In this document: one piece after another, positions 1,075 through 64,000 of the stretch
Numbering within the stretch: position 1 is the stretch's first letter
Layout of the letters: every line of letters starts with the position of its first letter
From: Myxococcus sp. RHSTA-1-4
GTDB lineage: Bacteria > Myxococcota > Myxococcia > Myxococcales > Myxococcaceae
DNA: 64,000 nucleotides
Assembly: GCF_020037125.1 (NCBI RefSeq)
Contig: NZ_JAIQDG010000012.1
Coordinates: forward strand, 124,001-188,000
Reading direction: 5' to 3'
The notes under the pieces: generated by a model
The model's database searches: none
What the model was told of the DNA's origin: nothing
The model's input: only the letters and a program-made list of their open reading frames with translations
Program-made: the position numbers and the translations under genes

Positions 1075-3093
1075 ATGACTCGACCCTCCGACGGTGACCT
1101 CCGTACCGACACCGTCTTGCGCAACACCTACAAGATTGTCTCCGTGCTGGGGCGGGGAGGCATGGGCGCGGTGTACCTGGCCCAGCACCTGCGCCTTCCC
1201 GGCAAGCAGGTGGCGGTCAAGGTCCTCCGGGGTGGGGACCAGGTGACGCAGGAGATATTCACCCGCTTCCGCCGCGAGGCGGAGATCGCCTCCCGGCTGG
1301 GGCACCCCAACATCGTCGAGGTGCTCGACTACGACACCCTGGAGGACGGCACTCCGTTCCTGGTGCTGGAGTTCCTGCGCGGCGAGAGCCTCCAGTCCCG
1401 GCTGGAGCGGGGGCGGCTGCCGCTGGACGAGGTGTTCTCCTACACGCGGCAGATGGGCTCGGCGCTCCAGGCGGCGCACGGGGCGGGCATCGTCCACCGG
1501 GACCTCAAGCCGGCCAACGTGTTCCTGGTGCCCACCGACTCCGGCGGGGTGGTGGCTCAGCGCGTGAAGCTGCTCGACTTCGGCATCTCCAAGGTCCTCA
1601 GCTCGGAGACCTTGCAGACGCAGGAAGCCACCATCATCGGCACGCCGCAGTACATGTCGCCCGAGCAGGCGATGGGCAAGAACCGGGAAATCGACGCGCG
1701 GACGGACATCTTCGCGCTCGGGTGCATCGTCTACGAGATGCTGTCCGGCAAGCCCGTCTTCGGCGCGGGCACCCTGGCGCAGATGATCTTCCGCGTCGTG
1801 TACGAGCCGGCCGATCCGCTGGCCCCGCTCTGCCCGGAGGCCCCGGCGCACACCCTCGCCGCGGTGGAGCGTGCGCTGTCCAAGCGCCCGGATGACCGCT
1901 TCCCGGACGTGGCCTCCTTCGTGGAGGCGCTGACGGGCAGCCCGCTGCACACGCTCTCTCCGCAGCCGGGAGCGCAGCCGCTTCCCCGCCCTGCGGCGCC
2001 CCATCCCACTCCGAGCGCCCGGCCCGTCTCGGGCATCGCGCTGCCCTCGGACAACGCGGGCGAGGAAGGCTTCGACGCCACGATTGCACCGGGCAGCGGC
2101 AAGGCCGCCGTCCCGGATACGGGCCGCATGGGCATGGTGCAGCCCGAGCCCTTCGCGGGGGGCGGCACGGGCCGCATGGGCATGGTGCAGCCCGAGCCCT
2201 TCGCGGGGGGCGGCACGGGTCGCATGGGCGCGCCGCTGATGGACCCGCCGGCCCTGGAGCCCACGCTCATCTCCAAGCAGGTCCCCGTCCCTCCGCCGGA
2301 GCGCCCGCCCCAGCCCATCACCGCGGTGACGCCCCCGGTGCAGTCCGTGCCCCAGCAGGGCCCCGCGTCCGTCCAGGGCGTGGCCCCGGGCCAGCCCATG
2401 CACGCCGCGCAGTCCGTGGCCGGGGTCCCCGCGCAGCCCATCGCCGTGGCTCCCGCGCAGGCCATGCAGCCCGCGCCCACCAGGAGCCGTGGCCCGCTGG
2501 TCACCGCCGCGGCCGTGGCGCTCTTCGTCGCCGGTGGTGGCGTGGTCTGGCTGATGAGCCGCCCCGGGACTCCGTCCACGACGCCGGTGAGCGGCCCCCA
2601 GACGACGGCGGTGCAGCGGCCCCCGGCCAACTCCGGCAACGGCACCCCGACGGCCCTGGTGAATCAGCCCCCAACAAACTCCGGCAGCGGCACCCCGACG
2701 ACTGCCGTGCAGCAGCCTCCGCCCGACGTGGGCACGCCGGAGCCGGGCCCTTCCAACACTCCCACGGTGGCCACCACCACGCCGGACAAGCCGGCCACCA
2801 CCACCCGCCCAACGGCGCGCCCGGAGCAGTCCGAGGAAATGCCCGAGCGGGTGCGGGAGCTGCTGGCCGAGGGCGAGCGCGCCCTGGCCGCTGGCGATGC
2901 CGTCAAGGCCATCGCTCTCGCACAGAGCAGCCAGCGCACGGGCTTCGTGGCCAAGGCGTCGTACTCGCTGCTCACCCGCGCCTACTGCAAGCAGAACGAC
3001 CTGAGCAATATCAATGCCCAATGGCCCAAGGTCGCCGCCTCGGACAAGCCCCGGGTCCGCAAGTTCTGCAAGCGGTACGGCACCGAACTCTGA
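1075..3093 (+). CDS. transmembrane Ser/Thr protein kinase (Pkn type)
   Basis: A Hanks-type kinase of 672 residues. Visible motifs are the glycine loop VLGRGGMGAVYLA (about residue 24), the AVKVL lysine (about 48), HRDLKPAN (about 141), DFG (about 168) and GTPQYMSPEQ in the activation segment, so all catalytic residues are present. A Pro-rich juxtamembrane linker follows, with two perfect 16-residue repeats (GRMGMVQPEPFAGGGT). One membrane helix lies near 473-496, then an outside Pro/Thr-rich region with NSGNGTPT-like repeats, and a C-terminal helical segment resembling a TPR pair. The ATG at 1075 was chosen because the kinase fold begins soon after it. In-frame TTG 1003 and GTG 1018 are possible, but the AGGAGGG at 996-1002 is badly spaced for both. 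Two exported-protein genes follow closely and may share its transcript. Confidence 0.9.
   Translation: MTRPSDGDLRTDTVLRNTYKIVSVLGRGGMGAVYLAQHLRLPGKQVAVKVLRGGDQVTQEIFTRFRREAEIASRLGHPNIVEVLDYDTLEDGTPFLVLEFLRGESLQSRLERGRLPLDEVFSYTRQMGSALQAAHGAGIVHRDLKPANVFLVPTDSGGVVAQRVKLLDFGISKVLSSETLQTQEATIIGTPQYMSPEQAMGKNREIDARTDIFALGCIVYEMLSGKPVFGAGTLAQMIFRVVYEPADPLAPLCPEAPAHTLAAVERALSKRPDDRFPDVASFVEALTGSPLHTLSPQPGAQPLPRPAAPHPTPSARPVSGIALPSDNAGEEGFDATIAPGSGKAAVPDTGRMGMVQPEPFAGGGTGRMGMVQPEPFAGGGTGRMGAPLMDPPALEPTLISKQVPVPPPERPPQPITAVTPPVQSVPQQGPASVQGVAPGQPMHAAQSVAGVPAQPIAVAPAQAMQPAPTRSRGPLVTAAAVALFVAGGGVVWLMSRPGTPSTTPVSGPQTTAVQRPPANSGNGTPTALVNQPPTNSGSGTPTTAVQQPPPDVGTPEPGPSNTPTVATTTPDKPATTTRPTARPEQSEEMPERVRELLAEGERALAAGDAVKAIALAQSSQRTGFVAKASYSLLTRAYCKQNDLSNINAQWPKVAASDKPRVRKFCKRYGTEL
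2121..2216 (+). repeat. two perfect 48-bp tandem copies inside the kinase gene
   Basis: Bases 2121-2168 and 2169-2216 are identical, and a third copy begins at 2217 before diverging. Each copy encodes the 16-residue unit GRMGMVQPEPFAGGGT in the cytoplasmic linker of the kinase. The perfect identity implies recent duplication or ongoing copy-number change. Confidence 0.9.
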
Positions 3094-3145
3094 CACACGG
3101 GCCTTTCGCGAAGGGGGGCCCTCTCCGCAGCACGAGGTGATTCGC

Positions 3146-3958
3146 TTGAGAACCATGGTCGCAGTGATTGTCGCGGCGGTCGCGCTGGGGGCCGCACCCA
3201 GCCTGGCGGCTGCCCCCGTGGAGGCGGGCAAGGTGTACTCCGGTACCGAGGGCGAGGAAGTCGCGGTCGTCCCCCTTGCGCCCCGGTCCGACAAGAAGTT
3301 CCTCATCCGCGTGCGCGGCACGGGCTCCGAGTTCGACGGGAAGGTCTTCCCCTACGAGCTGAACGACTGGAGCACCAGCAGCACCGTGCAGCTCAACTAC
3401 AAGACGCAGTGGCACGGCCGGGACTACACGGCCCTGCACGTGCGCGACCAGCGCTACGAGATGTACGTGCCCGGCCGCCAGCAGGCCATCCGCCTCACCT
3501 ACGACGAGAAGAAGACCCAGTCCCTCAAGCCGGAGGAGGTCTACTCGCAGTACCAGAAGCTCCAGAAGGACGGCACGCTGGCGAAGCTGATGGCCTTCGA
3601 CCGCAAGGGCGAGGCCGCGCGCCACGACAAGGACTACGCCGACACGCTCCACGAGATGAACAGCGCGTGCGGCACCTCGGTGTCGGCGGCCATCGACTGG
3701 AGCAGCGTCACCGACGACCACCTCAAGGAGCTGAGCATCTCCAGCTACTGTGACGCCCCGCTCACCGCGATGAAGCAGCTGTGCACCGTCTCCAACATCG
3801 CGAAGCAGACCGTGCGCGAGAAGGTGAAGCAGGTCAGCTGCCGCTTCGGCAACGCCCTGGAGCCGAAGCTCGAGGCGGACCGCGTCATCTGGACGACCCA
3901 CAAGGACGCCAGCAACCAGGACCAACACGCCACCCGGTTCCTCAAGACGAACCTGTAG
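3146..3958 (+). CDS. exported protein of unknown function
   Basis: About 270 residues beginning MRTMVAVIVAAVALGAAPSLAAAP, a clear Sec signal peptide with a likely cut after an Ala-x-Ala. I chose the TTG at 3146 because GAGGTGA (3134-3140) lies five bases before it; the ATG at 3155 is too far from that site. The mature part is soluble and Lys/Asp-rich with three late cysteines (near SACGT, SSYCD, KQLCT and QVSCRF), which might form disulfides in the periplasm. No family is recognised. It sits 52 bases after the kinase gene and 15 bases before another exported protein of similar style, suggesting a three-gene operon. Confidence 0.75.
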   Translation: MRTMVAVIVAAVALGAAPSLAAAPVEAGKVYSGTEGEEVAVVPLAPRSDKKFLIRVRGTGSEFDGKVFPYELNDWSTSSTVQLNYKTQWHGRDYTALHVRDQRYEMYVPGRQQAIRLTYDEKKTQSLKPEEVYSQYQKLQKDGTLAKLMAFDRKGEAARHDKDYADTLHEMNSACGTSVSAAIDWSSVTDDHLKELSISSYCDAPLTAMKQLCTVSNIAKQTVREKVKQVSCRFGNALEPKLEADRVIWTTHKDASNQDQHATRFLKTNL

Positions 3959-3973
3959 CCGGAGCCCTCCCAG

Positions 3974-4798
3974 ATGAACTTCAAGCGATTCGCAGCGGTC
4001 GCGATGTCCCTCGCGTGCGGTGCCTCCCTGGCCGCCGACCCCGTCCAGCCGCCTTGGGGCAAGGAGGAGAACCTCGGCCAGAAGATGCTGATGGAAGCCA
4101 CCTCCGTGTGCACCGACGGCAAGGGGCACTACGTGGTGCTGGCGCCGGAGGACGACGAGAACCGCCCGCGCATGTACTACGGCGACGGGAAGACCTTCGT
4201 CCTGGTGGCCAGCCCGGGCCACTATGCGCCGTCGAACTCCTTCCTGGAGCCGCGCTTCTTCAACAAGTCCGCCAACCCCAACTTCCGCGGCATGGACTAC
4301 CGCGTGATGTCGGAGGTGGAGCTGGACGCGAAGGAGAAGAGCTGCGCCCTGCGCTGCGGCGAGAAGAAGATTCCCCTCACCCTGATGGACGGCGCGGAGG
4401 CCGCGGACCTGCTGCGCAAGGCCACGTACCAGCCCAACCCGCAGAAGTACGCGCCCCACGCGCTGCTGCGTGACACCAAGGGCAACTACTACTTCGTGGA
4501 CCGCGGCTTCCACGAGGCCGACCAGAAGAGCTACCGCGTCTTCATCGGCCAGCGCGGCACCCTGAAGCAGCAGAAGATGACCAACGTCGTCTCGGACTCC
4601 GAGGGCGAAATCTTCTCCACGAAGAAGGGCGAGCTCCGGCTGGTGCTCGACCAGGAGAAGTCCTCCATGTGGATCGAGAACACCAAGAAGTCCTTCGAGC
4701 TGCGCCAGGTGCCCGTCCACGAGAACCTGCCGCTCATCTACAACGACCTGGGTGTGTACGAGGGCGCCCGCCTGGGCACGCCCTGCGACGACCAGTAG
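3974..4798 (+). CDS. exported protein of unknown function
   Basis: A 274-residue protein that begins MNFKRFAAVAMSLACGASLAA, a Sec signal peptide with a predicted cut near ASLAA-DP. The cysteine before the cut is not in a good lipobox position, so I favour a soluble periplasmic protein. The mature chain contains a CALRCGEKK pair and a Trp/Tyr-rich beta-type pattern, but no family is recognised. It follows the previous exported protein by 15 bases and shares its length and general character, so the two may act together, possibly with the upstream receptor kinase; that link is inference from position only. Confidence 0.75.
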   Translation: MNFKRFAAVAMSLACGASLAADPVQPPWGKEENLGQKMLMEATSVCTDGKGHYVVLAPEDDENRPRMYYGDGKTFVLVASPGHYAPSNSFLEPRFFNKSANPNFRGMDYRVMSEVELDAKEKSCALRCGEKKIPLTLMDGAEAADLLRKATYQPNPQKYAPHALLRDTKGNYYFVDRGFHEADQKSYRVFIGQRGTLKQQKMTNVVSDSEGEIFSTKKGELRLVLDQEKSSMWIENTKKSFELRQVPVHENLPLIYNDLGVYEGARLGTPCDDQ

Positions 4799-4815
4799 CC
4801 ACGCGCCTCACGGCG

Positions 4816-4832
4816 CCGGCCCCGCGGGCCGG
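4816..4832 (+). terminator. GC-rich hairpin, possible terminator
   Basis: A perfect 7-bp stem (CCGGCCC / GGGCCGG) with a CGC loop lies 17 bases after the stop of the exported-protein gene. There is no T run, so intrinsic termination is uncertain; such hairpins are common in GC-rich genomes. Confidence 0.4.
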
Positions 4833-4928
4833 GCGGAACGTCTCCACGACGCTCCTCCCGGCCCGTGGCCGTTTCAGTGTCCCCGGCTCGAGGTCCGGGC
4901 GGGAAGCCGGCGGGCCGGCCTTGATTGA

Positions 4929-6278
4929 GTGGCGCGGTTGCGCGAGCCTTCCCCTTCCGCCGTGAGCCATCCCCGCTACTTCGTCCCCCATGCCGCCAGC
5001 GCGGCCGAGCCCGTCCAGTCGGACGCCTCCGCGATAGCGCACGTGGTGGATGCGTTCCGCTTCGAGGCCAGACACCTCCTGGAGCAGGAGTGGATTGTCG
5101 GCATCGACGCGGTGGGCAACGTCCACGTGGTGCCCGCCAGCGCGAGAGACCCGCTCCCCGCCGAGGCGAAGGCGCAGCTCACGCACCACGAGGTCGCCTC
5201 CGGCCGCACGCCCCGGCGCATCGCCGCGGAGGAGCTGTACTTCTTCGCCGTGGAACTGGTGGAGCACCCCTCCGACGCGGAGGGCTTCAACGACCCGGTG
5301 TACCTCTATGGCCACCTGTCGGGCCCGTGGCCGGGTGATGCGCCCACACGCGTGCCGGGGCAGCTCACGGTGACGCGCGGGGACGTGCTGGCCGGGCTGG
5401 TGCACGGCGCGGCGGAGGCCTTCCACTACGTGCAGACGCCGGAGAGCCCCTCCGCGCCGCGCGGCTACCACGCGCTGCTTCCAGGGGACCGCCCCGAGCG
5501 CCTCGCCGAGGGCCGGGGCCTGGTGCTCGCCTGGCCCGCGGTGCCACCCGAGCTGCAGGTGGGCAACGCCTCCAACGGCCCCATGGTGGCGCGCATCCTC
5601 CATGACGTGCTCACGCAGCTCCAGGAGGACGCCCGCGCGCATGGCGGCCCGGAGCCGCTGGCGCGAATGGAGCTGCCCGTCCCCAGCCGCGCCATGGCCA
5701 TCGCGGACCTGGAGCTGCGCGGCTATGAGGTGAAGGGCGACGTGGCCATCCTCCGGCGCAACCACCCGGGCCTCCTCACCCGCATGGCGGAGTGGCTGCG
5801 CGCGGAGAAGGTGAAGGTGCCCACCGAGGCCGGCGCCCCCGGCTTCCTCGAGGTGGCCCGCGCCGCGCTCGCCGCCCTCCCCGGCTGGCCCGGGGAATCG
5901 GAGCGGGTGCTCCGCGCGCTCGTCCGTCCCGGAGGCAGCGCGCCCGTGCCCGTCGGCTCCATGGCCATTCCCGTGGCCGCCGCGGCCGTGGCGCCGCGTC
6001 CCCTGCCCCCTCGCGCGCCACCGAAGCCGCCGCGCCCGGACGAGTGGATGCAGGACTTCCTCAACGCGCACGCCGCGTCACACCCGGGCGGCGCGAAGCC
6101 GAAGCTCACGCGGGCGAAGCCGGCCTTCACTCCGCCTCCCGCGCCCGCGAAGAAGTCCGGCACGCCGGACTGGATGGCGGACTTCGGCGCCACTCGCGGT
6201 GAACCCGCGTCAAAGCCCTCCACGAACACGGCGTCCCCCGCGAAGAAGCCGGATTGGATGAGCGACTTCGAGGACTGA
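4929..6278 (+). CDS. unknown protein with three W-M-x-D-F tail motifs
   Basis: A 449-residue cytoplasmic protein with no recognised domain. Residues 1 to about 345 look globular. The last 100 residues are Pro/Ala/Lys-rich and hold three spaced copies of a short motif: PDEWMQDFLNAH, TPDWMADFGA and KPDWMSDFED, the last at the very C-terminus. Such repeated aromatic/acidic motifs in a disordered tail usually serve as docking sites for a partner, which I cannot name. The GTG at 4929 is the first start; a GTG at 4962 is equally possible because neither has a clear ribosome site. It is followed after 72 bases by the vWA/ATPase operon. Confidence 0.75.
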   Translation: MARLREPSPSAVSHPRYFVPHAASAAEPVQSDASAIAHVVDAFRFEARHLLEQEWIVGIDAVGNVHVVPASARDPLPAEAKAQLTHHEVASGRTPRRIAAEELYFFAVELVEHPSDAEGFNDPVYLYGHLSGPWPGDAPTRVPGQLTVTRGDVLAGLVHGAAEAFHYVQTPESPSAPRGYHALLPGDRPERLAEGRGLVLAWPAVPPELQVGNASNGPMVARILHDVLTQLQEDARAHGGPEPLARMELPVPSRAMAIADLELRGYEVKGDVAILRRNHPGLLTRMAEWLRAEKVKVPTEAGAPGFLEVARAALAALPGWPGESERVLRALVRPGGSAPVPVGSMAIPVAAAAVAPRPLPPRAPPKPPRPDEWMQDFLNAHAASHPGGAKPKLTRAKPAFTPPPAPAKKSGTPDWMADFGATRGEPASKPSTNTASPAKKPDWMSDFED

Positions 6279-6350
6279 GGGTGGGCCGTTGCGGCTCCTG
6301 CCCGCGGGGCGATACCGTCGCCCCCCAATCGCAGGGGGAACAACGACACC

Positions 6351-7286
6351 ATGGGACACGAGAAGCCGGTAGAGCCGTTTTCGGACCTCCACGTGGAGGA
6401 GGGGAAGGTGCGCGCGGTGCTGCTGCACGACCCCACCGTCGAGGGCCTGGACGTCGCCATCTACATGGACGCGTCGGGCAGCATGCAGGACGAGTACAAG
6501 TATGAGCGGCCCCAGCGCACCTTCCTGGAGTGGATTCGCGGCGCGCCGCTGAAGGACCCCGCCAACCAGGTGGAGCCCCAGGTGCAGTGGATGCTCGAGT
6601 ACCTGGCCACCAAGGACCGCAACGGCCAGCTCCGCGTGGCCTACTGGGCCTGCGGCAACTCCGGCCGCGAGGTGGAGGTGGTGGGCGAGCTGAAGGGCGT
6701 GGACGTGAAGCAGTACAAGTTCCCCGGCGCGAAGAAGCTCGGGAACCACACGTACCTGGCCCCCGCGCTGAAGGACTACGTGCGCTACCTCAAGGAGCAG
6801 GTGCCGCAGGGCGCCCGCCGCGGCTGCGCGGTCATCGTCACCGACGGCCAGCTCCACGACGCGGATGAGGTGGAGAAGTTCTCCGAGCAGGTCGCGAAGG
6901 AGATCGCCTCCGGAAAGCTGCCGCGCCTGAACTTCGTGCTGGTGGGCGTGGGTGACGGCATCGACGAGGAGCAGCTCGAGAAGATTGCCCACACCGAGTA
7001 CCCGGGCGTGGGCCACCTGTGGTGCCACCGCATCGCCAAGGAAATCACCCAGGTGGCGGAGCTGGTGGCCGTGCTCGTCGACGAGAACATGACGGTCGCC
7101 GCCGGCGGCACCATCTACGACGACAAGGGCAAGGTCCTGAAGACCTATGAGGGCCGCCTCCCGGCGGTGCTGGAGTTCGACGTGCCCGAGGGCGCGGAGA
7201 GCTTCACCCTGGAGGTGAACGGCCAGCGCTACACCCAGCCGCTGCCGGACGAGGACCACCACGACGAGGACGAGGACCACCACTGA
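6351..7286 (+). CDS. vWA-domain protein with Asp/His-rich tail (copy 1)
   Basis: A 311-residue protein with a von Willebrand A domain. The MIDAS metal site DxSxS is visible as DASGS at about residue 40, with the later VIVTDGQ and VGVGDG strands of the fold. A C-terminal beta-type region (TIYDDKGKVLKTYEGRLPAV onward) precedes the last residues, DEDHHDEDEDHH. No signal peptide or membrane helix is seen, so it should be cytoplasmic. vWA proteins usually bind partners through a Mg2+ ion; the tail looks able to bind transition metals. AGGGGGA before the ATG is a good ribosome site. Its TGA overlaps the ATG of the next gene, a paralog, by one base, so the two are translationally coupled. Confidence 0.85.
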   Translation: MGHEKPVEPFSDLHVEEGKVRAVLLHDPTVEGLDVAIYMDASGSMQDEYKYERPQRTFLEWIRGAPLKDPANQVEPQVQWMLEYLATKDRNGQLRVAYWACGNSGREVEVVGELKGVDVKQYKFPGAKKLGNHTYLAPALKDYVRYLKEQVPQGARRGCAVIVTDGQLHDADEVEKFSEQVAKEIASGKLPRLNFVLVGVGDGIDEEQLEKIAHTEYPGVGHLWCHRIAKEITQVAELVAVLVDENMTVAAGGTIYDDKGKVLKTYEGRLPAVLEFDVPEGAESFTLEVNGQRYTQPLPDEDHHDEDEDHH

Positions 7287-8263
7287 TGGCCGGCCACGAA
7301 GTCATCGTCCGGCCGTTCTCGGACGTGCACCGGATGGGGAACAAGGTCGTCGCCACGCTGCTGCACGACCCGACGGTGGAGGGGCTGGACGTGGCCCTCT
7401 ACATGGACGGCTCGGCGAGCATGGAGGACGAGTACGGGCCTCGCGGCGTGCTGGCGAAGCTGGCGCCCGTGAAGAACCAGGTCGAGCCGGAGATGCGGTG
7501 GATGCTGGAGTACCTCGCATCCAAGGACCGCGACGGCGTGGTGCGCGTTGCGTACTGGGCCACGGGAGACGGCAGCCAGCTGGAGCACGTGGGGGACCTC
7601 ACCGCCTTGCAGGCGAAGGACTTCCGCTTCCCGGGGCCGCGCTTCTACGGCAAGGCCACGGTGATGCTCCCGGTGCTGCGGGACTTCGTGGCCCACATGA
7701 AGCAGCAGGTGCAGACGGGCGCGCGCCGGGGGCTGGCGGTCATCATCACCGACTCGCAGCTCTCGGACGGCAACGACGTGCGGGCCTACGCCACCCAGGT
7801 GGCGAAGGAGATCGCCGCCGGCCGCCTGCCGCGGATGAACTTCGTGTTCGTCGGCGTGGGCGACCAGGTGGATGAAGAGCAGATGGAGGAAATCTCCCAC
7901 GAGACGTACCCGGGCGTGGGCCACCTGTGGTGCCACCGCATCTCCCACCGCATGGAGGAGATGGCGGAGCTGGTGGCGGTGCTGGTGGACGAGACGATGA
8001 CCGTCGCGGCGGGCGGCACCATTTACGACGAGCAGGGCAAGGTCCTGAAGTCGTACGAGGGCCGGCTGCCCGCGGTGCTCGAGTTCGAGGTCCCCGAGAC
8101 GTGCAAGGCCTTCACCCTGGAGGTGGCGGGTCAGAAGTTCACCCAGCCCATCCCCGAGGAGCACGAGGACGAGGACCACCACGAGGAAGAGGAGCCCCAG
8201 CCCGCACCGGTGAGCGCCCCCGCCCCCGCTCCCTCCCGCAAGCACGGCGGCCACCGCCACTAG
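7286..8263 (+). CDS. vWA-domain protein with Asp/His-rich tail (copy 2)
   Basis: A 325-residue paralog of the gene before it. The first residues (PFSDVHRMGNKVVATLLHDP), the MIDAS motif DGSAS at about residue 41, the VIITDSQLSDG and VGVGDQVDEEQ strands, and the TIYDEQGKVLKSYEGRLPAV region all align without large gaps. The tail is again acidic and His-rich (EHEDEDHHEEEE), then continues with Pro/Ala and ends KHGGHRH. The pair clearly arose by tandem duplication. The metal ATPase gene starts 19 bases downstream, which makes a metal-linked role for both vWA proteins likely but unproven. Confidence 0.85.
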   Translation: MAGHEVIVRPFSDVHRMGNKVVATLLHDPTVEGLDVALYMDGSASMEDEYGPRGVLAKLAPVKNQVEPEMRWMLEYLASKDRDGVVRVAYWATGDGSQLEHVGDLTALQAKDFRFPGPRFYGKATVMLPVLRDFVAHMKQQVQTGARRGLAVIITDSQLSDGNDVRAYATQVAKEIAAGRLPRMNFVFVGVGDQVDEEQMEEISHETYPGVGHLWCHRISHRMEEMAELVAVLVDETMTVAAGGTIYDEQGKVLKSYEGRLPAVLEFEVPETCKAFTLEVAGQKFTQPIPEEHEDEDHHEEEEPQPAPVSAPAPAPSRKHGGHRH

Positions 8264-8282
8264 CACCAGGAATCACGACGCC

Positions 8283-11135
8283 ATGTCCGAGCAGAAGAAG
8301 AGCGGTGCGCAGTCCGGCCATGTCCATGGGCCGGGCTGCGAGCATGACCACGCGCATGACCATGACGCCGCTCATGCGCACGGGCATGGCGAGCCTCACG
8401 TCCACGGGCCGGGGTGCAAGCACGACCACGGCCCCTCCCTGGCGGCGGTGAAGCCCGTGGGGAAGCTGTCCTTCAAGGAGCTGAAAATCATCGGCCCCGC
8501 GAAGGCGGAGAAGCACGTCCACGGTCCGGGCTGCAACCACGACCATGACCACGACCACGGTCATGACCACGCGCACGGCGAGAAGCATGTGCATGGCCCT
8601 GGCTGCAACCACGACCACGGTCATGACCATGACCACGACCATGAGCACGGCCCCGGGTGCAGCCATGACCATGGTCACCATCACCCGAAGCCGAAGCGCA
8701 TCCGTCCTCCCGGGAACCGGCCCGCGGAGGGCGGGGGCGCGGCGCTCCAGCTCGACCTGGAGGGCGCGCTGCCGGGCGAGACGGACGACGTGGGCCGCTT
8801 CCAGAAGCTGGAGGCCGCGCTGGAGGCCCACCGGGGCGTCACCGACGTCCACCTCCGGAGAGACCAGGGCTACGCGGAGGTCTGCATCCACTACAAGCCG
8901 GAGCTGGTGAGCGCGACGCAGCTCCTCACCGCCGCGCAGCGCACCGGGGCCGAAGTCTCCGCGCGCTACAAGCACCAGACGTGGTTCGTGCGCGGCATGG
9001 AGTCCGCGGACGCGGCCTCCACCATCGAGACCGGACTCGGGAAGCTGAAGGGTGTCCTCTCCGCGAGCGTGGCGTACGCCAGCGAGCGCCTCGTCGTGGA
9101 GTACGACAGTGAGGAAGTCACGTTGAAGGACGTGGAGGCGAAGGCGAAGGCGCTCGGATACGCGCTGGAGGTGCCCTCGCACGGGCACGCCTGCTCGCAC
9201 CACGCGCACGGGGGAGGCCTGGCGCCCCTGTTGGAGATGCCGCTGGTGGGGGTCTCCGGCGTGCTGCTCCTCGGGGGCTGGCTGCTGGAGCGCTACTTCC
9301 AGGTGTCCCCGCTGGTGCCCACGCTCGTCTGGGCGCTGTCCATGGCGACCGGCGGCTTCTTCGCCATCCGCGGCTCGGTGAAGTCGCTCTTCCAGCTGCG
9401 CATCGACATCGAGACGATGATGGTGGTGGCGGCCCTGGGCGCGGCGGTGCTGGGCGCCTGGTTCGAGGGCGCCTTCCTCCTCTTCCTCTTCGGCGCGGGC
9501 CACGCGCTGGAGCACCGGGCCATGGACCGCGCGCGGCGCTCCATCGAGTCGCTCGGCGCGCTCCGCCCCGAGGTGGCGCGCGTGCGCCGCGGGGGTGACG
9601 TGGTGGAGGTGCCGGTGGGCGAGGTGCAGCGCGGCGAGCGCATCGTCGTGCGCCCCGGCGACCGCGTCGCGCTGGACGGAATCATCCGAGAGGGAAAGAG
9701 CTCGCTGGAGCAGGCGGCGATTACGGGCGAGTCCATCCCCGTCGCCAAGAAGCCGGGGGACGAGGTGTTCTCCGGCACCATCAACTGCGAGGGCATGCTG
9801 GAGGTGGAGGTCACCCGCCTCTCCTCGGAGTCGGTGCTGGCGCGCGTGGTGGACATGGTGGCGGAGGCGGAGGCGCAGAAGGGCCCCAACCAGCGCTTCG
9901 CGCAGCGGCTGGAGCGCATCGTGGCGCCGCTGGTGATGATTGGCGCGGTGGTGTTCCCGGTGGTGCTGATTCTGCTGGGCACGCCGGTGAAGGAAGCCAT
10001 CCTCCGCGCGGTGGCGCTGCTGGTGGCGGCCTCGCCGTGCGCGCTGGCCATCTCCACGCCGTCGGCGGTGCTGTCCGCCGTGGCGGCGGCGGCGCGGGGC
10101 GGCGTGCTGGTGAAGGGCGGCATCTACCTGGAGCTGCTGGCGAAGGTGAACGCCATCGCCTTCGACAAGACGGGCACCCTGACGGTGGGCCGGCCGAAGC
10201 TGCTCGCCACCGCTCCGGCGGAGGGCGTATCGCGCGAGGAGCTGCTCGGCACGGCCGCGTCGGTGGAGTCCCTCTCCGCGCACCCGCTGGCGAAGGCGGT
10301 GGTGGAGGCGGCGGCCGAGGCCGGCATCCAGGCCCCGGCGGGGAGCGATTTGGAGGCCATCCACGGCAAGGGCATCCGCGCGAAGGTGGGTGACGCGCGG
10401 GTGGACGTGGGCAGCCTCGCCCTCTTCGAGGGGCAGGCGGTGCCGGCGGAGATTGCCGCCCAGGTGGACAGGCTGGAGGAGGCGGGCCAGACGACGATGG
10501 TGGTGCGCAAGGCGGAGCGCTTCCTCGGGGTGCTGGGCGTGGCGGACACGCTGCGGCCGGGGGCGCGGCACGTGGTGCACACACTCAAGGAGTCCGGCAT
10601 CGGGCGCACGGTGATGCTCTCCGGCGACAACGCGCGGGTGGCGAAGTCCATCGCCGCGCAGGTAGGCCTGGACGAGGCGCGGGCGCCGCTGATGCCGGCC
10701 GACAAGGTGACGGCGGTGCGGGAGCTGGGCCGTCAGGGCTCGGTGGCCATGGTGGGCGACGGCGTGAATGACGCGCCCGCGCTCGCCGCGGCGGCGGTGG
10801 GCGTGGCCATGGGCGGGGCGGGCTCGGACGCGGCGCTGGAGACGGCGGACGTGGTGCTGATGAGCGACGACCTGTCCCGGCTGCCCTTCGCGCTGGGGCT
10901 GGCGCGCCAGGCCACGGCGGTGATGCAGCAGAACCTGGTCATCTCGCTGGGCATCAGCGGCATCCTCATCATCGCCGCCATCTTCGGCCTCACGCAGATC
11001 AGCCACGCCGTGGTGCTCCACGAGGGCAGCACGCTCCTCGTCGTCGCCAACGGCCTGCGCCTGCTCTTCGTCCGGCCCCACGCCATGACGTCCGCGCCGG
11101 AGCCGGTGGTGGGCGTGCGGCCCGCCGCCGGCTGA
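8283..11135 (+). CDS. P1B-type (P1B-4-like) heavy-metal ATPase with His-rich N-terminus
   Basis: A 950-residue metal-exporting P-type ATPase. Visible are TGES (about 481), SPC in the sixth membrane helix (about 584), the phosphorylated DKTGT (about 628), GDGVND (about 825) and HEGST (about 913) near the C-terminus. SPC together with an HEGGT-like motif is the signature of the P1B-4 group, which moves Co2+ and in some members Zn2+, Cd2+ or Fe2+; the CPC of copper/zinc pumps is absent. The first 136 residues hold five HGPGCxHDH repeats among runs of His and Asp. Two ferredoxin-like HMA domains follow, but the second reads GMESADAAST where metal-binding versions have CxxC, so the usual cysteines are lost. 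It ends an operon with two vWA genes carrying His tails. Confidence 0.93.
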   Translation: MSEQKKSGAQSGHVHGPGCEHDHAHDHDAAHAHGHGEPHVHGPGCKHDHGPSLAAVKPVGKLSFKELKIIGPAKAEKHVHGPGCNHDHDHDHGHDHAHGEKHVHGPGCNHDHGHDHDHDHEHGPGCSHDHGHHHPKPKRIRPPGNRPAEGGGAALQLDLEGALPGETDDVGRFQKLEAALEAHRGVTDVHLRRDQGYAEVCIHYKPELVSATQLLTAAQRTGAEVSARYKHQTWFVRGMESADAASTIETGLGKLKGVLSASVAYASERLVVEYDSEEVTLKDVEAKAKALGYALEVPSHGHACSHHAHGGGLAPLLEMPLVGVSGVLLLGGWLLERYFQVSPLVPTLVWALSMATGGFFAIRGSVKSLFQLRIDIETMMVVAALGAAVLGAWFEGAFLLFLFGAGHALEHRAMDRARRSIESLGALRPEVARVRRGGDVVEVPVGEVQRGERIVVRPGDRVALDGIIREGKSSLEQAAITGESIPVAKKPGDEVFSGTINCEGMLEVEVTRLSSESVLARVVDMVAEAEAQKGPNQRFAQRLERIVAPLVMIGAVVFPVVLILLGTPVKEAILRAVALLVAASPCALAISTPSAVLSAVAAAARGGVLVKGGIYLELLAKVNAIAFDKTGTLTVGRPKLLATAPAEGVSREELLGTAASVESLSAHPLAKAVVEAAAEAGIQAPAGSDLEAIHGKGIRAKVGDARVDVGSLALFEGQAVPAEIAAQVDRLEEAGQTTMVVRKAERFLGVLGVADTLRPGARHVVHTLKESGIGRTVMLSGDNARVAKSIAAQVGLDEARAPLMPADKVTAVRELGRQGSVAMVGDGVNDAPALAAAAVGVAMGGAGSDAALETADVVLMSDDLSRLPFALGLARQATAVMQQNLVISLGISGILIIAAIFGLTQISHAVVLHEGSTLLVVANGLRLLFVRPHAMTSAPEPVVGVRPAAG
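8313..8690 (+). repeat. His/Asp codon repeats, five HGPGC units
   Basis: Repetitive CAT/CAC/GAC DNA encodes five copies of HGPGCxHDH, three of them with a leading HV and separated by His-Asp runs. It is an in-frame metal-binding low-complexity region of the ATPase, with one cysteine per unit. Confidence 0.85.
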
Positions 11136-11156
11136 GCACCTCTCTCCCCGCGGGGG

Positions 11157-11990
11157 CTACCCGCGGACCGTCTTCCGGAAGCTGACCTCAATGAACGTGG
11201 CATCCACCCGGGCGCGAATCTCCGCTCGCGCCTGGAGCAGCTTCGAGACGTTCACCCGGCTCTGGCGGTTCCAGATGATGAAGTCACCGTCCTCGCCGTC
11301 GAAGTTCCACTGGTGCAGGCCCTGGTAGTTCTCGTTGACGGCCTCGTTCCGCGCGTGCGCGAGCACCAGGTAGCCGCCCGTCTTCGTCAACGTCAGCGCC
11401 TGCTCGATGATGCGCACCGGCTCATAGCTGTGGTCGAGCGAGTTCTGGGCCCACACCAGGTCGAACGTCTCCGGGGCGAACCGCGTCGTCAGGATTTCAC
11501 CGTGGCACCACGTGGTGCGGACCGGAGGAGTGACTCCGTACTTCGCCATGACGCGGTCGTACGCATCCGCGAGCGGGTCCACCGCCGTGATGCGAATCTT
11601 CCGGTTGGCGGAGCGCTTGCCCAGCTTCGTCACCGGCCCGGCGCCCACGTCGAGAATCTCGATGATGTCCTCTCCCCCAGGCGGGAGGTAGGCCTCCACG
11701 AAGCTCTGGAGCGGGGTGTCCGGGTCCATGCGGACCTTGTAGTCCTCGGGCCACTCGCCTCCATGGGTCTTGAACCAGTTGTCCCAGAAGGCAATCTCGG
11801 TGGGCAGGGCTTCGGTCCAGAGGGCCTTCGCGTTCTGGGGCTCGGAGGCCTGGGGCGTGGAGGCCTGGGCGGGCACGGCACTGTTGGTGACGCCGTGCGC
11901 GGACGTGGGAATGTCCGCCAACGCCGCATAGAGGCCACGCCGGACGCGGGTGAGCACTTTTCGTGAAATGTCGAGCATGGGCCGCAGCAT
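11157..11990 (-). CDS. class I SAM-dependent methyltransferase
   Basis: A 277-residue protein. Motif I is EILDVGAGP near residue 110, the acidic end of strand 2 is AVDPLA, and FDLVWAQNSLDH is the motif IV region, matching the Methyltransf_11-like fold that binds S-adenosylmethionine. The substrate is unknown. The first 60 residues, Ala/Pro/Ser-rich with a basic start, precede the fold and may be disordered. M1 and M5 are both possible starts and neither has a strong ribosome site. It converges on the metal ATPase gene with 21 bases between the stops. Confidence 0.85.
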   Translation of the reverse strand: MLRPMLDISRKVLTRVRRGLYAALADIPTSAHGVTNSAVPAQASTPQASEPQNAKALWTEALPTEIAFWDNWFKTHGGEWPEDYKVRMDPDTPLQSFVEAYLPPGGEDIIEILDVGAGPVTKLGKRSANRKIRITAVDPLADAYDRVMAKYGVTPPVRTTWCHGEILTTRFAPETFDLVWAQNSLDHSYEPVRIIEQALTLTKTGGYLVLAHARNEAVNENYQGLHQWNFDGEDGDFIIWNRQSRVNVSKLLQARAEIRARVDATFIEVSFRKTVRG

Positions 11991-12291
11991 CGGCCCGGAT
12001 GAATGTCATATCAACACCCTTCCCCGCCGAATCCCAACCCGCGGTCAGTCCCAAAGTCAGTCTGCCTGACAAGTTGAATCCCAGGCGGATGGTCCTCCTG
12101 GCCTCTGGCGCAACGGACTGAGCGCCGCCGCGCCCCGGCCTGTCAGCACAGGCCACATGACGCAACCGCGCCAACGCAGTGCGTCTACGTCACGAGCGCG
12201 TCCCGGCGATGACGTTGGCCTTCCAATGAGCGGCGCCCGTCCGGACGGCGACACGCGTTTCGCTCGCGGGCGCTGGGAGGGAATACGGAAC
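11991..12291. other. divergent intergenic region, no gene
   Basis: This is the promoter region between the methyltransferase and serine dehydratase genes. I see no credible small gene. It holds an inverted repeat at 12137-12154 and a second one (CGGAAC/GTTCCG, 12286-12304) that overlaps the proposed dehydratase start. Confidence 0.6.
12137..12154. promoter_or_regulatory. 7-bp perfect inverted repeat upstream of serine dehydratase
   Basis: GGCCTGT and ACAGGCC are separated by CAGC. It could be an operator for the gene downstream or a transcript hairpin. No factor can be assigned. Confidence 0.35.
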
Positions 12292-13722
12292 GTGGCATGT
12301 TCCGCCCCCATGGCCGTCAGCGTCTTCGACCTCTTCAAGATTGGCATCGGGCCCTCCAGCTCTCACACCGTCGGGCCCATGCGTGCCGCGCGCGCGTTCG
12401 TCCTTCGACTGGCGGAGGCCGGCAAGCTGGAGCGGCTCTGCAAGCTGAAGGTGGAGCTGTTCGGCTCGCTGGGCGCCACCGGCAAGGGCCACGGCAGCGA
12501 CAAGGCGGTGCTGCTCGGCCTGCGCGGTGAGACGCCCGAGGGCGTGGACGTGGAGTCCATTCCCGCGGTGATTGCCCGCTGGCGCACCGAGGGCCGCGTG
12601 CCGGTGCTGGGCCAGCGCGAGGTGACGTTCCGCGACGGCGAGCACCTGGTGATGCACCGCCGCCGCGCGCTGCCCTACCACCCCAACGGCATGCGCTTCT
12701 CCGCCTTCGACGCGGACGGCACGGAGCTGGACGCCCGCGTCTACTACTCCGTGGGCGGAGGCTTCGTGGTGGACGAGTCGGCGGTGCAGGGGCAGGACCC
12801 GCTGCGCCAGGACGGCACGCCGCTGCCCTTCCCCTTCCACTCCGCCGCCGAGCTCCTGGAGCACTGCGACCGCCAGCGCGCGTCCATCAGCTCCATCATG
12901 CTGGCGAACGAGAAGGCGTGGCGGAGCGAGGAGGAGCTTCGCACCGGACTGCTGCGCATCTGGGATGTCATGCAGTCCTGCGTGCGCCGGGGCTGCACCA
13001 GCGGAGGCATCCTCCCCGGTGGCCTCAGGGTGGAGCGGCGCGCCGCCGCCCTGTACCAGCGGCTGCTCAGCCGTCCCGAGGCCGGGCTCACCAACCCGCT
13101 CACGGTGCTGGACTGGGTGAACCTGTACGCGCTCGCCGTCAACGAGGAGAACGCGGCGGGTGGCCGCGTCGTCACCGCGCCCACCAACGGCGCGGCGGGC
13201 ATCATCCCCGCGGTGCTGCACTACTACTGGCGCTTCGTGCCGGGGGCGAACGACGACGGCGTGGTGCGCTTCCTCCTCACGGCCGGCGCCATCGGCGTGC
13301 TCTACAAGGAGAACGCGTCCATCAGCGGCGCCGAGGTGGGCTGCCAGGGCGAGGTGGGCAGCGCATGCTCCATGGCGGCCGGTGCGCTCACCGAGGTGCT
13401 GGGCGGCACGCCGCTCCAGGTGGAGAACGCGGCGGAAATCGCCATGGAGCACAACCTGGGGCTCACCTGTGACCCCATTGGCGGGCTCGTGCAGGTGCCC
13501 TGCATCGAGCGCAATGCCATGGCGTCCGTGAAGGCCATCAACGCCGCGCGCATGGCGCTGTCCGGAGACGGTCGCCACTTCGTCAGCCTGGACAAGGTCA
13601 TCAAGACCATGCGCGACACCGGCCGCGACATGAAGGACAAGTACAAGGAGACCGCGCGCGGCGGGCTCGCCGTCAACGTGCTGGAAGTGGCCAACCTGAG
13701 CGTCGGCCTGCCGGAGTGCTGA
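12292..13722 (+). CDS. sdaA: L-serine ammonia-lyase (iron-sulfur type)
   Basis: A single-chain L-serine dehydratase of about 476 residues that converts L-serine to pyruvate and ammonia. The start [19 protein letters not shown] is the hallmark of the family. The iron-sulfur cluster cysteines are visible in [14 protein letters not shown] and LTCDPIGG...VPCIERN. The chain combines the alpha and beta parts in one polypeptide, as in E. coli SdaA. Two starts compete. GTG at 12292 has GGGAGGGA nine bases upstream, while ATG at 12310 gives the N-terminus closest to known members but has no ribosome site; I took the former. An inverted repeat covers the start and could affect translation. Confidence 0.93.
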
Positions 13723-13896
13723 CGGGGCGCATCCGGCCCGCGGTCCTTTGACGTGCAACGTGGCCGCCGGCAGGGAGGACCCGACGTGGAGAGTCCCGCC
13801 GGTGCCGGGGTGCGCCTTGCGTCGGGTTGCCCGAGCGCTCTAAGACGCGCCCGGGCCCGCTCCCCCACAGGGCCCCCTGTCCAGAGGACACACCCC

Positions 13897-14577
13897 ATGC
13901 TCAAGAAGATCCTCGGCGGCCTCGCGGCCGCCATCCTGGTGCTCGTCGCCGTCATCGCCACCCGTCCCGCTGACTTCAAGCTGCAGCGCACCGCCATCCT
14001 GCCGGTGACGCCGGACGTGGCCTTCGCGCTGGTGAACGACTTCCACCGGTGGAACGAGTGGTCGCCGTGGGACAAGCTGGACCCGAATCAGAAGACCACG
14101 CACTCCGGCGCGGAGTCGGGCACGGGCGCGGTGTACGCCTGGGCCGGCAACGACGACGTGGGCGAGGGCCGGATGACCATCGAGGAGAGCAAGGTCAACG
14201 AGCTCGTCCGAATCAAGCTGGAGTTCATCAAGCCCTTCGAGTCCACGAACACCACCACCTTCGCGTTCAAGCCCGTCGAGGGCGGCACCGAGGTGACGTG
14301 GGCCATGAGCGGCACCAACAACTTCATGAGCAAGGCGTTCGACCTGTTCATGGACATGGACGCGATGGTCGGCAAGGACTTCGAGAAGGGCCTGGCCAGC
14401 ATGAAGGTCGCGGCGGAGGCCGAGGCGAAGAAGCGCGCCGAGGCCGAGGCCGCGCGCGTGGCCGCGGAGAAGGCCGCCGCGGAGAAGGCCGCCGCCGAGG
14501 CTGCCGCCGCCGCCGCCGCTGCCGCCGAGGGCCAGCCCGCCGAGGGCACGCCGGGCGTCGCCCAGCCCACGCCGTGA
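13897..14577 (+). CDS. SRPBCC (START-like) domain protein with membrane anchor
   Basis: 226 residues: an N-terminal hydrophobic segment (LGGLAAAILVLVAVIA) that is a signal anchor or signal peptide, then a ligand-binding fold of the polyketide cyclase/SRPBCC type, recognised by DVAFALVNDFHRWNEWSPW and GTEVTWAMSGTNNFMSKAFDL. From about residue 170 a helical Ala/Glu/Lys tail (KKRAEAEAARVAAEKAAAEK) follows. The ATG at 13897 has AGAGGA upstream; longer in-frame starts lack one. Members bind hydrophobic ligands or act as cyclases, and no specific ligand can be inferred. Confidence 0.8.
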   Translation: MLKKILGGLAAAILVLVAVIATRPADFKLQRTAILPVTPDVAFALVNDFHRWNEWSPWDKLDPNQKTTHSGAESGTGAVYAWAGNDDVGEGRMTIEESKVNELVRIKLEFIKPFESTNTTTFAFKPVEGGTEVTWAMSGTNNFMSKAFDLFMDMDAMVGKDFEKGLASMKVAAEAEAKKRAEAEAARVAAEKAAAEKAAAEAAAAAAAAAEGQPAEGTPGVAQPTP

Positions 14578-14669
14578 AACACGGCTGACGCAATCAACCG
14601 CCGCCCCCGTGCACACGGTTCCGTCGCGGGGCGCGGCCCGGGTTTCCGCGCGCGTCCGCCGGCCGGGGC

Positions 14670-15635
14670 TCAGCCCGGCATCCGCCCCACGTACACGCCC
14701 AGGAAGAACGCCAGCACGGTCAGGCTCACCGCCAGCAGCACCGGGACACCCTTCCGTCGTGCCGTGACGGGAGCCACGACGCGCACCGCTCCCGCGCCTT
14801 CCTCCGGGACGATGATGCGCACCTTGATGACGGCCTGGACGAGCACCTCCTCCACGTCCCGCAGGAAGCGCTCGTACTCCTCCGCCTGCATCTCCAGGGG
14901 CACGCCGTGGTGGGACTCGTAGCGCTTCGCCACCGCCTCGAAGTTGCGGAGCTGCGCCTCGCGCTTCGACACGTCCACCCAGCCGCAAATCAGCGACGGC
15001 GAGTTGCCCTTCCGGGGCACGAGCGAAATCGCCTGCCGGGCCAGCTTCCCTCCCGCGGTGCTCGGCCCTTCCGGCTCGTCGATGCGCAGCACGCGGTGCG
15101 GTCCCCGGCCGTACATCTTGGAGGACATCGCGCCCCGGAGCTGCTCCGCGAGCAGCGCGGAGTGATTCGCGAACATCGTCCGCAGCGCGGGGGGCTCGTC
15201 CTCCGCCGGCATCTTGCCCTTCGCGGGCTCCAGCGGACTCAGCCGCACCACGCCCACCTGCGCCGGCGGAGGGCTCGCGCGCTTCTCGCCGCCACCCTTC
15301 GCGAGCCAGCCCGACGCCTTCTCCTTGCCCCCACGGGCCACCACCGGGGGCTTCTCGGTCCGGATGTCCGTGGGAACATCCAGCGGGGGCAGCTCCTCAT
15401 CACGAGCCCCCCGGCCCGGTGCCGCGCCCCCGCGCGCCTTGCCGCCACGGACGGGCCGGTCCTCCACCGGCCCCATGCGCGTCTCATTGGCGCCCGTCTC
15501 CAGCGGGGCCATGCGCGTCTCCTCGGGCCGGGTGAGGAGCGGGATGTCGCGCGTCGCGTCCGGGTCCTCCTCCAGCGCGACACGCGTCTCCTCGTGCCGG
15601 CTCGGGCCGCCGCCCCGTCTCTGTCCGTTCGCCAT
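14670..15635 (-). CDS. tail-anchored protein with repeated E-x-T-R motifs
   Basis: 321 residues. The first 60 hold four spaced units of the kind (E/D)xTR: HEETRVALEEDPDATRDIP, EETRMAP and NETRMGP. A basic linker follows, then a globular middle of unknown type (about 120-285), and a single C-terminal membrane helix (VLLAVSLTVLAFFLGVYVG) that makes it a tail-anchored protein facing the cytoplasm. Repeated threonines after acidic residues look like phosphorylation sites for Ser/Thr kinases or docking sites for FHA domains; that is inference. GAGGAG five bases before the ATG supports the start. It follows pbpC on the same strand after 128 bases. Confidence 0.75.
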   Translation of the reverse strand: MANGQRRGGGPSRHEETRVALEEDPDATRDIPLLTRPEETRMAPLETGANETRMGPVEDRPVRGGKARGGAAPGRGARDEELPPLDVPTDIRTEKPPVVARGGKEKASGWLAKGGGEKRASPPPAQVGVVRLSPLEPAKGKMPAEDEPPALRTMFANHSALLAEQLRGAMSSKMYGRGPHRVLRIDEPEGPSTAGGKLARQAISLVPRKGNSPSLICGWVDVSKREAQLRNFEAVAKRYESHHGVPLEMQAEEYERFLRDVEEVLVQAVIKVRIIVPEEGAGAVRVVAPVTARRKGVPVLLAVSLTVLAFFLGVYVGRMPG

Positions 15636-63245: not shown

Positions 63246-63437
63246 ATGCAGCGCACCACCGAGTCGTCGCAGATCTCCTTCGAGCTGAAGGACAGCCAGC
63301 TCAAGTCCATCGAGCAGTCGCGCCAGTCGTCCAACGGCAAGCTGACCATCAAGACCGCCGTCCGCGCCGGCGCGTCCACGGGGTTCGACTGCATCTACTT
63401 CGCGCGCAACGCCCCGTTCGCGCCTGAGCACCTGTAA
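63246..63437 (+). CDS. 63-residue peptide, possible RiPP precursor
   Basis: 63 residues: a charged, Ser/Gln/Glu/Lys-rich front (MQRTTESSQISFELKDSQLK) and a back half, from about residue 41, with Gly, one Cys (49) and aromatic residues: GASTGFDCIYFARNAPFAP. AGGAG lies nine bases before the ATG, so translation is likely. A ferritin-like enzyme gene starts 35 bases downstream. A short leader-like front and a residue-rich back next to a possible tailoring oxygenase fits a ribosomal peptide precursor. It could also be an unrelated small regulatory protein. Confidence 0.65.
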   Translation: MQRTTESSQISFELKDSQLKSIEQSRQSSNGKLTIKTAVRAGASTGFDCIYFARNAPFAPEHL

Positions 63438-63472
63438 CCCGGCCCCGTGAGAGAGACAGGGAGGATGTGTCC

Positions 63473-64000
63473 ATGAATGTCGTTGCTGAAGTCACCCTGG
63501 AAGCGCTCAAGCAGCATCAGCTCGGGCCGCTGGAGCGTTATAGCGAATGCCTCAGGAACACCTTCGAGGCACATCCTCCCCCTTTCAGCGTCGCCTGGTA
63601 CGGCGACCAGTTCCGGGAGATGGCGAGAGACCGCGAGTGGTTCGCGAACATCATCGTGGGCAATGCGTCCACCGAGGGCTGGGGCTCCGGAAAGCTCTGG
63701 TACCTCGCGGGGAAGACCCACGAGGAGCACGTCTCGGTCCTCATCCAGCAGCACGCGATGGATGAGGCGCGCCACTCCCGGATGTACTCGAGCATGGTGG
63801 AGCGCATCTTCCCCGGCACGGTGGGCGATGCGCTCCGGAGCGAGCTCAAGACGCTCGCGCCCATCTACCGCGCCGACGACAAGCCGGAGCGGCTGCCGCC
63901 CTACTCCTACCAGGCCATCCTGGACAACCTGCTCCAGATGAACGTGGCCGAAATCCGCACCATGGTGAACCAGATGCTGGCGCGCCCGGTGCTGCTGACG
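63473..64000 (+). CDS. ferritin-like (diiron) protein, partial
   Basis: 176 residues before the window ends. The segment NASTEGWGSGKLWYLAG ... THEEHVSVLIQQHAMDEARHSRMY supplies Glu 68 and Glu 98-x-x-His 101, the first half of an E...ExxH diiron site. NVAEIRT (Glu 160) may begin the second half. This pattern occurs in oxygenases, N-oxygenases (AurF-like) and ribonucleotide reductase-like enzymes. GGGAGG nine bases before the ATG supports the start. The right end is cut off, so the second ExxH and the full length cannot be seen. Confidence 0.75.
   Translation, partial: MNVVAEVTLEALKQHQLGPLERYSECLRNTFEAHPPPFSVAWYGDQFREMARDREWFANIIVGNASTEGWGSGKLWYLAGKTHEEHVSVLIQQHAMDEARHSRMYSSMVERIFPGTVGDALRSELKTLAPIYRADDKPERLPPYSYQAILDNLLQMNVAEIRTMVNQMLARPVLLT

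Follow-up and report, generated by a model that had tools for sequence, protein, structure and literature searches.

RiPP classes take their names from the class-defining maturase, and we know of no class that is defined by a ferritin-like diiron oxygenase. Several described systems come near. In the MNIO (DUF692) RiPPs, represented in the excerpts available by the methanobactin, 3-thiaglutamate and biphenomycin-like pathways, a short precursor adjoins a multi-iron oxidase and further tailoring enzymes. Haem-oxygenase-like diiron oxidases (HDOs), according to one review (PMC13108848), play a part in ribosomal peptide modification, with thioamidated peptides cited, so that some precedent exists for diiron enzymes close to RiPPs; the same review treats ferritin-like diiron oxygenases as a class structurally distinct from HDOs. 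Among the matches listed from the open-licence literature, available as excerpts, there was neither a RiPP class with a ferritin-like diiron maturase nor a pairing of precursor peptide with IucA/IucC, and the available portions of PMC12703449, PMC13108848, PMC9867215 and PMC13060819 contain neither, which is limited evidence of novelty.

The locus considered here begins at the right-hand end of a 64,000-nucleotide stretch of DNA (the window, G000:C33:124001-188000) from the 11.2-Mb genome of Myxococcus sp. RHSTA-1-4. The hallmark of a RiPP, a gene-encoded short precursor adjoining dedicated maturation genes, is present at this locus. The layout recalls the MNIO RiPPs, but its enzyme belongs to the helical, ferritin-like diiron proteins, and none of ten locus proteins matches DUF692 (Pfam, E 0.1). 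Unlike the HDOs, the enzyme has ferritin-like ligands, though UndA and CADD score Z ~13 against its model. With AurF, MiaE and the aldehyde-deformylating oxygenases it shares the ferritin-like fold, two ExxH motifs and a set of four Glu and two His, but it scores below the gathering cut-off of the AurF family (PF11583; 22.9 vs 29.6 bits) and matches no solved structure by sequence at E 0.01 or better. The export genes resemble NHLM/NHLP systems (TIGR03796, TIGR03797, TIGR03794) in combining an HlyD protein with two ABC proteins, of which one bears a C39 peptidase; however, the best NCBIfam match of the C39-ABC protein, TIGR03796 (NHLM_micro_ABC1), reaches 203 bits, far under the cut-off of 853, and the window peptide matches no family. 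Some relatives (type B, below) resemble NIS siderophore pathways in that IucA/IucC and an FhuF-domain protein come right after the enzyme, but there the synthetase is partnered by a ribosomal peptide and a diiron enzyme, and the ten proteins of the window locus give no IucA/IucC match in the Pfam scan (E 0.1). The window locus is likely to be a RiPP-type operon. It would represent one branch of a class, widespread and apparently undescribed, that has a ferritin-like diiron enzyme as its common maturase and the peptide as its putative substrate.

The peptide gene

The gene P0001 (63246..63437, + strand) runs from ATG to TAA, encodes 63 amino acids (MQRTTESSQISFELKDSQLKSIEQSRQSSNGKLTIKTAVRAGASTGFDCIYFARNAPFAPEHL) and is preceded by an AGGAG stretch. 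The sequence-only reading had placed a 63-residue peptide 35 bases ahead of a diiron-type enzyme, and the spacing holds: the enzyme ATG is at 63473, behind a GGGAGG stretch. The product is precursor-like, and the gene stands beside the enzyme gene in six myxobacterial loci. On the same strand, residues 1-42 (63246..63371) form a proposed leader ending in VRAG, and residues 43-63 (63372..63434) a proposed core, ASTGFDCIYFARNAPFAPEHL, which includes the family motif YFARNAPF (residues 51-58, 63396..63419; pattern [FY]-x-[AS]-x-N-x-x-[FY]). All six aligned peptides of the window type have C-I-[YF]-F-A-R-N-A-P-F-A in common. A C39 cut after residue 42 is proposed because VRAG is unchanged across these six and a C39-ABC gene lies downstream; in the relatives L060 and L096, VTGG and LNGG stand just ahead of the core.

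The front of the peptide had been called leader-like, and segments of the form I-S-F-[DE]-L and G-x-[VIL]-K-x-G-K-L do recur before the core in precursors of other phyla (alignments read by eye). The back half had been described as rich in Cys and aromatic residues. This is true of P0001, but what is conserved family-wide is an Asn-containing motif, not Cys. P0001 matches no Pfam family at E 0.1 and no NCBIfam family at E 1. Nor does it match NF050152, the model of ApyA aminopyruvatide-related precursors; among ten relative peptides this model finds only the leader of L070 (residues 4-24 of the precursor at 7453-7689), weakly and below the cut-off (16.2 vs 40 bits). Leaders may, to judge from such a similarity, be common to different classes.

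Is P0001 a chance or untranslated reading frame? This was rejected because the peptide is conserved and because its motif precedes the enzyme at 31 of 35 loci but was found at 1 of 983 control ORF starts (below). Beside the enzyme, identity to P0001 is 79-87% in four congeners and 45% in Corallococcus, and GFDCIYFARNAPFAPEH is identical in all five closest genomes. Pooled over the ten pairs of these five genomes, pN is 0.076 and pS 0.147, with pN exceeding pS in one pair (G000/G109), which is a weak test by itself.

The diiron enzyme

The enzyme gene (+ strand) occupies 63473..64000 and runs on to window-equivalent 64228; in L003, whose position 1 is window 63001, it spans 473-1228. The window ends inside it, as had been noted, after 176 of 251 codons. 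In two plasmid records the enzyme is labelled 'hypothetical protein'. The predicted iron ligands E68, E98, H101, E160, E197 and H200 are invariant in all 26 aligned relatives, and by sequence the set matches four-Glu/two-His diiron sites with two ExxH motifs. An AlphaFold2 model (pLDDT 90.6, pTM 0.88) is all helical. Foldseek returned no match to the model at E 0.001, ferritin-like proteins appearing at E 0.07 or worse. With VIA-align, MiaE-type and aldehyde-deformylating oxygenases came top (Z 14.6, rmsd 3.2-3.5, 176-188 residues aligned), with haem-oxygenase-like CADD (Z 13.6) and UndA (Z 13.4) close behind; helical bundles inflate Z, and these scores support the fold of the enzyme, not its function. 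The modelled helical bundle, with its two ExxH helices and two further predicted Glu ligands, places the enzyme in the ferritin-like diiron superfamily.

Genes to the right of the window

Any export or protease genes had been expected to the right, and they are found past position 64000. From the peptide gene to a JmjC gene the locus forms a closely spaced, co-directional run on the + strand. The enzyme is followed by an enterochelin-esterase-like hydrolase (L003 1257-2498; Pfam Esterase 86.1 bits, Enterochelin_N 56.9), an HlyD protein (2500-3690; HlyD_3 52.6), a C39-peptidase ABC transporter (3687-6440; Peptidase_C39 68.8, with ABC_tran), a second ABC transporter (6437-8617; ABC_tran) and a JmjC protein (8629-9825; JmjC_2 91.4). 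The two ABC_tran domains score 73.0 and 69.4 bits. All of these named domains exceed the Pfam cut-off; the membrane domains of both transporters fall under it. The hydrolase also passes NCBIfam NF007758 (enterochelin esterase) at 231 bits against a cut-off of 222, and its best solved match is the enterochelin esterase 2b20 (E 7e-38); unlike the setting of such an esterase, no iron-uptake genes were identified in the window locus. The JmjC protein is similar in sequence to NO66 (best solved match, E 1.5e-23), MINA and the L16 arginine hydroxylase, but differs from them in lying in a peptide cluster. Predicted catalytic residues are present by sequence: Cys25, His105 and Asp121 of the C39 domain, Ser292 and His392 of the esterase, and the HxD motif of the JmjC protein. 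The suggestion of a candidate new peptide natural product locus thus gains support from the exporter genes, the conserved pair and the lack of a family match, modification of the peptide being what we infer.

Two further genes lie downstream at L003 9963-11896: P0008, for which no family was found, and P0009, a weak match to haem-oxygenase-like proteins (16.2 vs 28.9 bits). They were considered for the core gene set and left out: among the four congeners, both are near full length in G105 alone, G109 and G095 have fragments of P0008 only, and G114 has neither (20-kb stretches searched). They are possibly a separate second oxidase module.

Conservation among myxobacteria

The enzyme occurs in 9 of 145 genomes of the order sample (E 0.001 or better) and in 9 of 195 of the phylum sample of G000, the nine genomes being the same. 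A peptide of the P0001 kind accompanies it in eight of the nine, six found by sequence search, from which peptide matches at E > 0.02 in other genomes are excluded, and two by reading of ORFs. All four congeners that have the enzyme keep all seven genes, from peptide to JmjC, in collinear order, with 74-86% identity for six of the proteins. Corallococcus exercitus (G060, the same locus as L056) has six of the seven genes in the order HlyD, C39-ABC, ABC, esterase, peptide, enzyme, and no JmjC relative grouped with its locus; the different order indicates that the gene set outlived a rearrangement. G079 and G075 carry enzymes that are 38 and 37% identical to that of the window, in another gene context, and in both a 59-residue ORF ending NFVAWNCPFDECR[TV]PKR lies ~112-114 bases upstream of the enzyme. 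In G121, a partial enzyme gene (28% identity), lacking a motif ORF, lies at the end of a contig.

A wider family with a shared motif

A scan with the enzyme alignment of a collection holding one genome for each of 84,980 species returned 25 loci, two of them myxobacterial loci already known; the scan used two short peptide patterns and so reaches only relatives that carry at least one of them. Plasmid searches gave four records, three from Rhizobium and one from Dolichospermum, a set that excludes H2, a second R. leguminosarum plasmid. The loci fall into six phyla: Myxococcota, Cyanobacteriota, Pseudomonadota, Actinomycetota, Acidobacteriota and Rokubacteria. At E 1e-20 the enzyme was found in 1 of 339 sampled genomes of the phylum of G196 (Moorena) and in 1 of 349 of the order of G206 (Burkholderia), the single hit being the centre genome both times. 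Together with the 9 of 195 above, these counts indicate a family that is rare and patchy in these samples.

A script for the motif ([FY].[AS].N..[FY]; ORFs of 30-170 aa on the strand of the enzyme, with their end at most 700 bases upstream of it) was positive at 29 of 33 enzyme loci and at 1 of 983 other mechanical ORF starts (at least 150 aa, same loci; 20 with a looser pattern). The four failures are L069 and L071 (Shewanella), L096 (Dolichospermum) and L097, where an annotated 71-aa gene carries FVAMNSPF and the mechanical ORF was probably too long. After L097, L098 and the partial G121 are counted, 31 of 35 enzyme loci have a motif peptide upstream, a figure to be read with the motif having been recognised in the same loci beforehand, the loci being related, L057 and L078 being tandem copies and the ORFs being mechanical. 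Conserved pairs of this peptide and enzyme, which the sequence-only reading had proposed to search for, are therefore the rule both in the order sample and in most relatives elsewhere, and enzyme homologues are not mostly without the peptide.

What does the motif look like? The window has YFARNAPF. FVAVNAPF is found in Sphingomonas, Rhizobium and Chromobacterium, FVALNSPF and FVAMNSPF in Nocardia, Saccharothrix and Rhizobium, and YRAWNASF, in three copies, in Kitasatospora. Heptad repeats such as FTACNAAFTACNAAF occur in Sorangium, Moorena, Pseudoduganella, Pyrinomonadaceae and Caulobacter, and Paraliomyxa has eight copies of Y[DN][AP]CNAAY. Over the last motif of 31 loci, position 1 is F (23) or Y (8), position 2 mostly V, position 3 A (30) or S (1), position 4 R (7), C (7), L (5), W (4), V (4), M (3) or F (1), position 5 N (31), position 6 A (21), S (8) or C (2), position 7 P (24), A (5), S (1) or H (1), and position 8 F (30) or Y (1). 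Positions 1, 3, 5 and 8, four of the eight, are demanded by the pattern, so that their constancy is partly by construction. Of 32 precursor-like peptides, 31 bear the motif, the exception being L096, with a partial motif (FAIRNHTL after LNGG). An aromatic residue stands four before the Asn in all 32 candidate precursors; for 31 the search pattern itself required the Asn, and the one pattern-independent case, L096, agrees (FAIRN). A Cys-centred modification as the family rule was rejected because the residue before the Asn varies among R, C, L, W, V, M and F.

Eight of the 31 motif peptides, two of them from the tandem Sorangium copies, contain 3-8 copies of the motif, in heptad register in seven (Kitasatospora is the exception), as is expected for a multi-core substrate. 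The close pairing of peptide and enzyme genes across phyla would also suit a peptide that is an accessory or regulatory subunit of the diiron enzyme, MmoB-like and itself unmodified. The multiple copies do not fit such a role, nor does the AG or GG that precedes the core in L060, L096 and all six peptides of the window type, or the C39 exporter at the window locus and, by reading, downstream in L060, and we regard a subunit as very improbable.

Partner genes by branch

The genes that accompany the pair differ among the branches. Type A, with ACN-repeat precursors, has GNAT and methyltransferase genes in L057, L078, L058, L059, L060 and L070, a grouping by BLAST with Pfam run on L070 only; neither gene was found on the short contig of L073, also of type A. 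In type B (L061-L065 and L067), IucA/IucC and an FhuF-domain protein come directly after the enzyme; the IucA/IucC domain of L061 scores 63.0 bits in Pfam against a cut-off of 25, the five further loci being grouped by BLAST only, and the synthetase of L062 has no solved-structure match by sequence. In type C (L066, L068, L072, L074, L075 and L076) the enzyme is followed by a nucleotidyltransferase-like protein, under the Pfam cut-off in the two tested, and a phosphonopyruvate-decarboxylase-like gene is present in L066, L068, L072 and L074 and missing from L075 and L076. The R. leguminosarum type C locus has asnB, cytidylyltransferase, TauD, aepY and aepX annotated around the pair. Type D has an Asn synthase in L053, L054, L077 and L079 (found also in type C L068 and L074), with PhyH in L054, L077 and L079. 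Type E is the window branch, with esterase, HlyD, C39-ABC, ABC and JmjC. In Dolichospermum the enzyme is followed by a JmjC-like protein 29% identical to that of the window. A link between JmjC and an Arg before the Asn, suggested by FARN of the window type and FAIRN of Dolichospermum, was dropped, with too few cases and FVARN in L065, where no JmjC ORF was noticed on the 5.6-kb contig.

On a tree of 29 enzymes, in which near-copies favour clustering, the types taken together need 7 changes, against a mean of 18.3 for shuffled labels (0 of 200 as low), and types cross phyla. Type A alone needs 4 changes, no better than shuffled labels (117 of 500 as low). The window branch forms a clade of six (starred) and adjoins the repeat-type enzyme of L060 with weaker support. 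L058, which has an in-frame stop, was omitted from the enzyme alignment (A2) and the tree; L067, L071, L078 and L098 are in neither, and L046, L096 and L097 are in the tree only. L048, L052 and L055 were dropped as duplicates of L056 or L046.

The C39/ABC/HlyD export genes by themselves would fit an ordinary secreted, unmodified bacteriocin-like peptide, with its exporter beside an unrelated oxygenase by chance. The enzyme-peptide pair persists, however, in loci with other partners, so that the pair and not the exporter is the constant part, and of the explanations weighed here this one is the hardest to credit. By eye, no C39 exporter is seen in the listed type B loci or around the R. leguminosarum type C locus, and not all branches need therefore be secreted RiPPs.

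Pearlin pathways build a small-molecule product on a peptide scaffold. Here, too, the peptide could be a scaffold on which the motif residue is converted and from which a small molecule, amino-acid derived, phosphonate or siderophore-like, is released. The listed type B loci, which conserve just peptide, enzyme and IucA/IucC synthetase, are in keeping with this, as are the type C locus amid genes for PEP mutase, phosphonopyruvate decarboxylase, cytidylyltransferase, TauD and asnB (L068 likewise) and the Shewanella loci, where a carrier-protein-like ORF (by reading) lies near the enzyme and the motif peptide was not found. But the C39 exporter and HlyD of the window branch fit a secreted peptide and the tandem repeats a multi-core product, and a general Pfam scan of 25 non-peptide proteins and 6 peptides gave no lantibiotic-dehydratase-like (PEARL-type) domain. 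A scaffold role is thus improbable, though less so than a subunit.

A proposed pathway

Gene linkage, the motif, the ligand residues and the family assignments above cut-offs are observed; from these we infer what the substrate is, where and how it is oxidised, where the leader is cut, and everything that follows in a RiPP-type pathway. The diiron enzyme would recognise the ribosomal precursor (leader ISFEL...GKL...VRAG; core [FY]-x-A-x-N-x-x-[FY]) and oxidise the core motif. The motif Asn is put forward as the site because it is the sole constant residue with a functional group, and we give it, provided that the core is modified at all, about an even chance; the change would be a beta- or N-hydroxylation. 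The JmjC 2-oxoglutarate oxygenase of the window branch is probably responsible for a second hydroxylation, at another residue. Its JmjC relatives are hydroxylases of Arg or His in ribosomal proteins, which makes Arg54, adjoining Asn55, a candidate second site. The enterochelin-esterase-like (Fes-like) hydrolase may serve in trimming or in (de)acylation. To judge from the domains and the invariant VRAG, the C39 domain would cut after VRAG and the ABC/HlyD machine export a peptide of ~21 residues. In other branches the IucA/IucC synthetase, the GNAT and methyltransferase, or the phosphonate genes would act after the same first step; several of these partners belong to group-transfer or hydroxylating families and might extend the oxidised group.

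A more specific proposal is that the Asn side chain is N-oxidised or hydroxylated to a metal-binding or nucleophilic group, that siderophore-type enzymes (IucA/IucC, GNAT, Fes-like) follow, and that the products are ribosomal siderophore-like metallophores, with the tandem repeats as multidentate chelators. This is speculative and rather unlikely. A ribosomal peptide acting with an IucA/IucC synthetase would unite two pathway logics that are usually separate. A single motif shared by 31 loci of six phyla, whose partner enzymes are interchangeable, would open a new route into genome mining, and with the small type B peptide-enzyme-synthetase units and the tandem-repeat precursors the first reaction can be tested directly in E. 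coli.

Individual loci

In Shewanella (L069 and L071) the enzyme relative is present and the motif peptide was not found, so that the enzyme family can act on something else. ORFs resembling phosphonate enzymes, a radical SAM protein, a carrier protein and a sulfatase lie around it (~205-15014). On the tree the L069 enzyme falls within the type C enzymes, and in these loci the substrate may have moved from peptide to carrier protein.

Sorangium cellulosum So ce26 (L057 and L078) has two near-identical repeat-precursor clusters ~13.4 kb apart. In Moorena bouillonii an enzyme gene with an in-frame stop stands beside an apparently intact repeat precursor (L058, 10001-10741), and a second, partial copy of the enzyme with two stops lies elsewhere in the genome (L095); it is possible, from these sequences, that the enzyme genes are decaying. 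On plasmid unnamed2 of R. leguminosarum ATCC 14479 (L097), typed as conjugative, the pair and its phosphonate genes lie ~9 kb from repABC, and other Rhizobium replicons (L074, L098) carry similar peptide-enzyme pairs.
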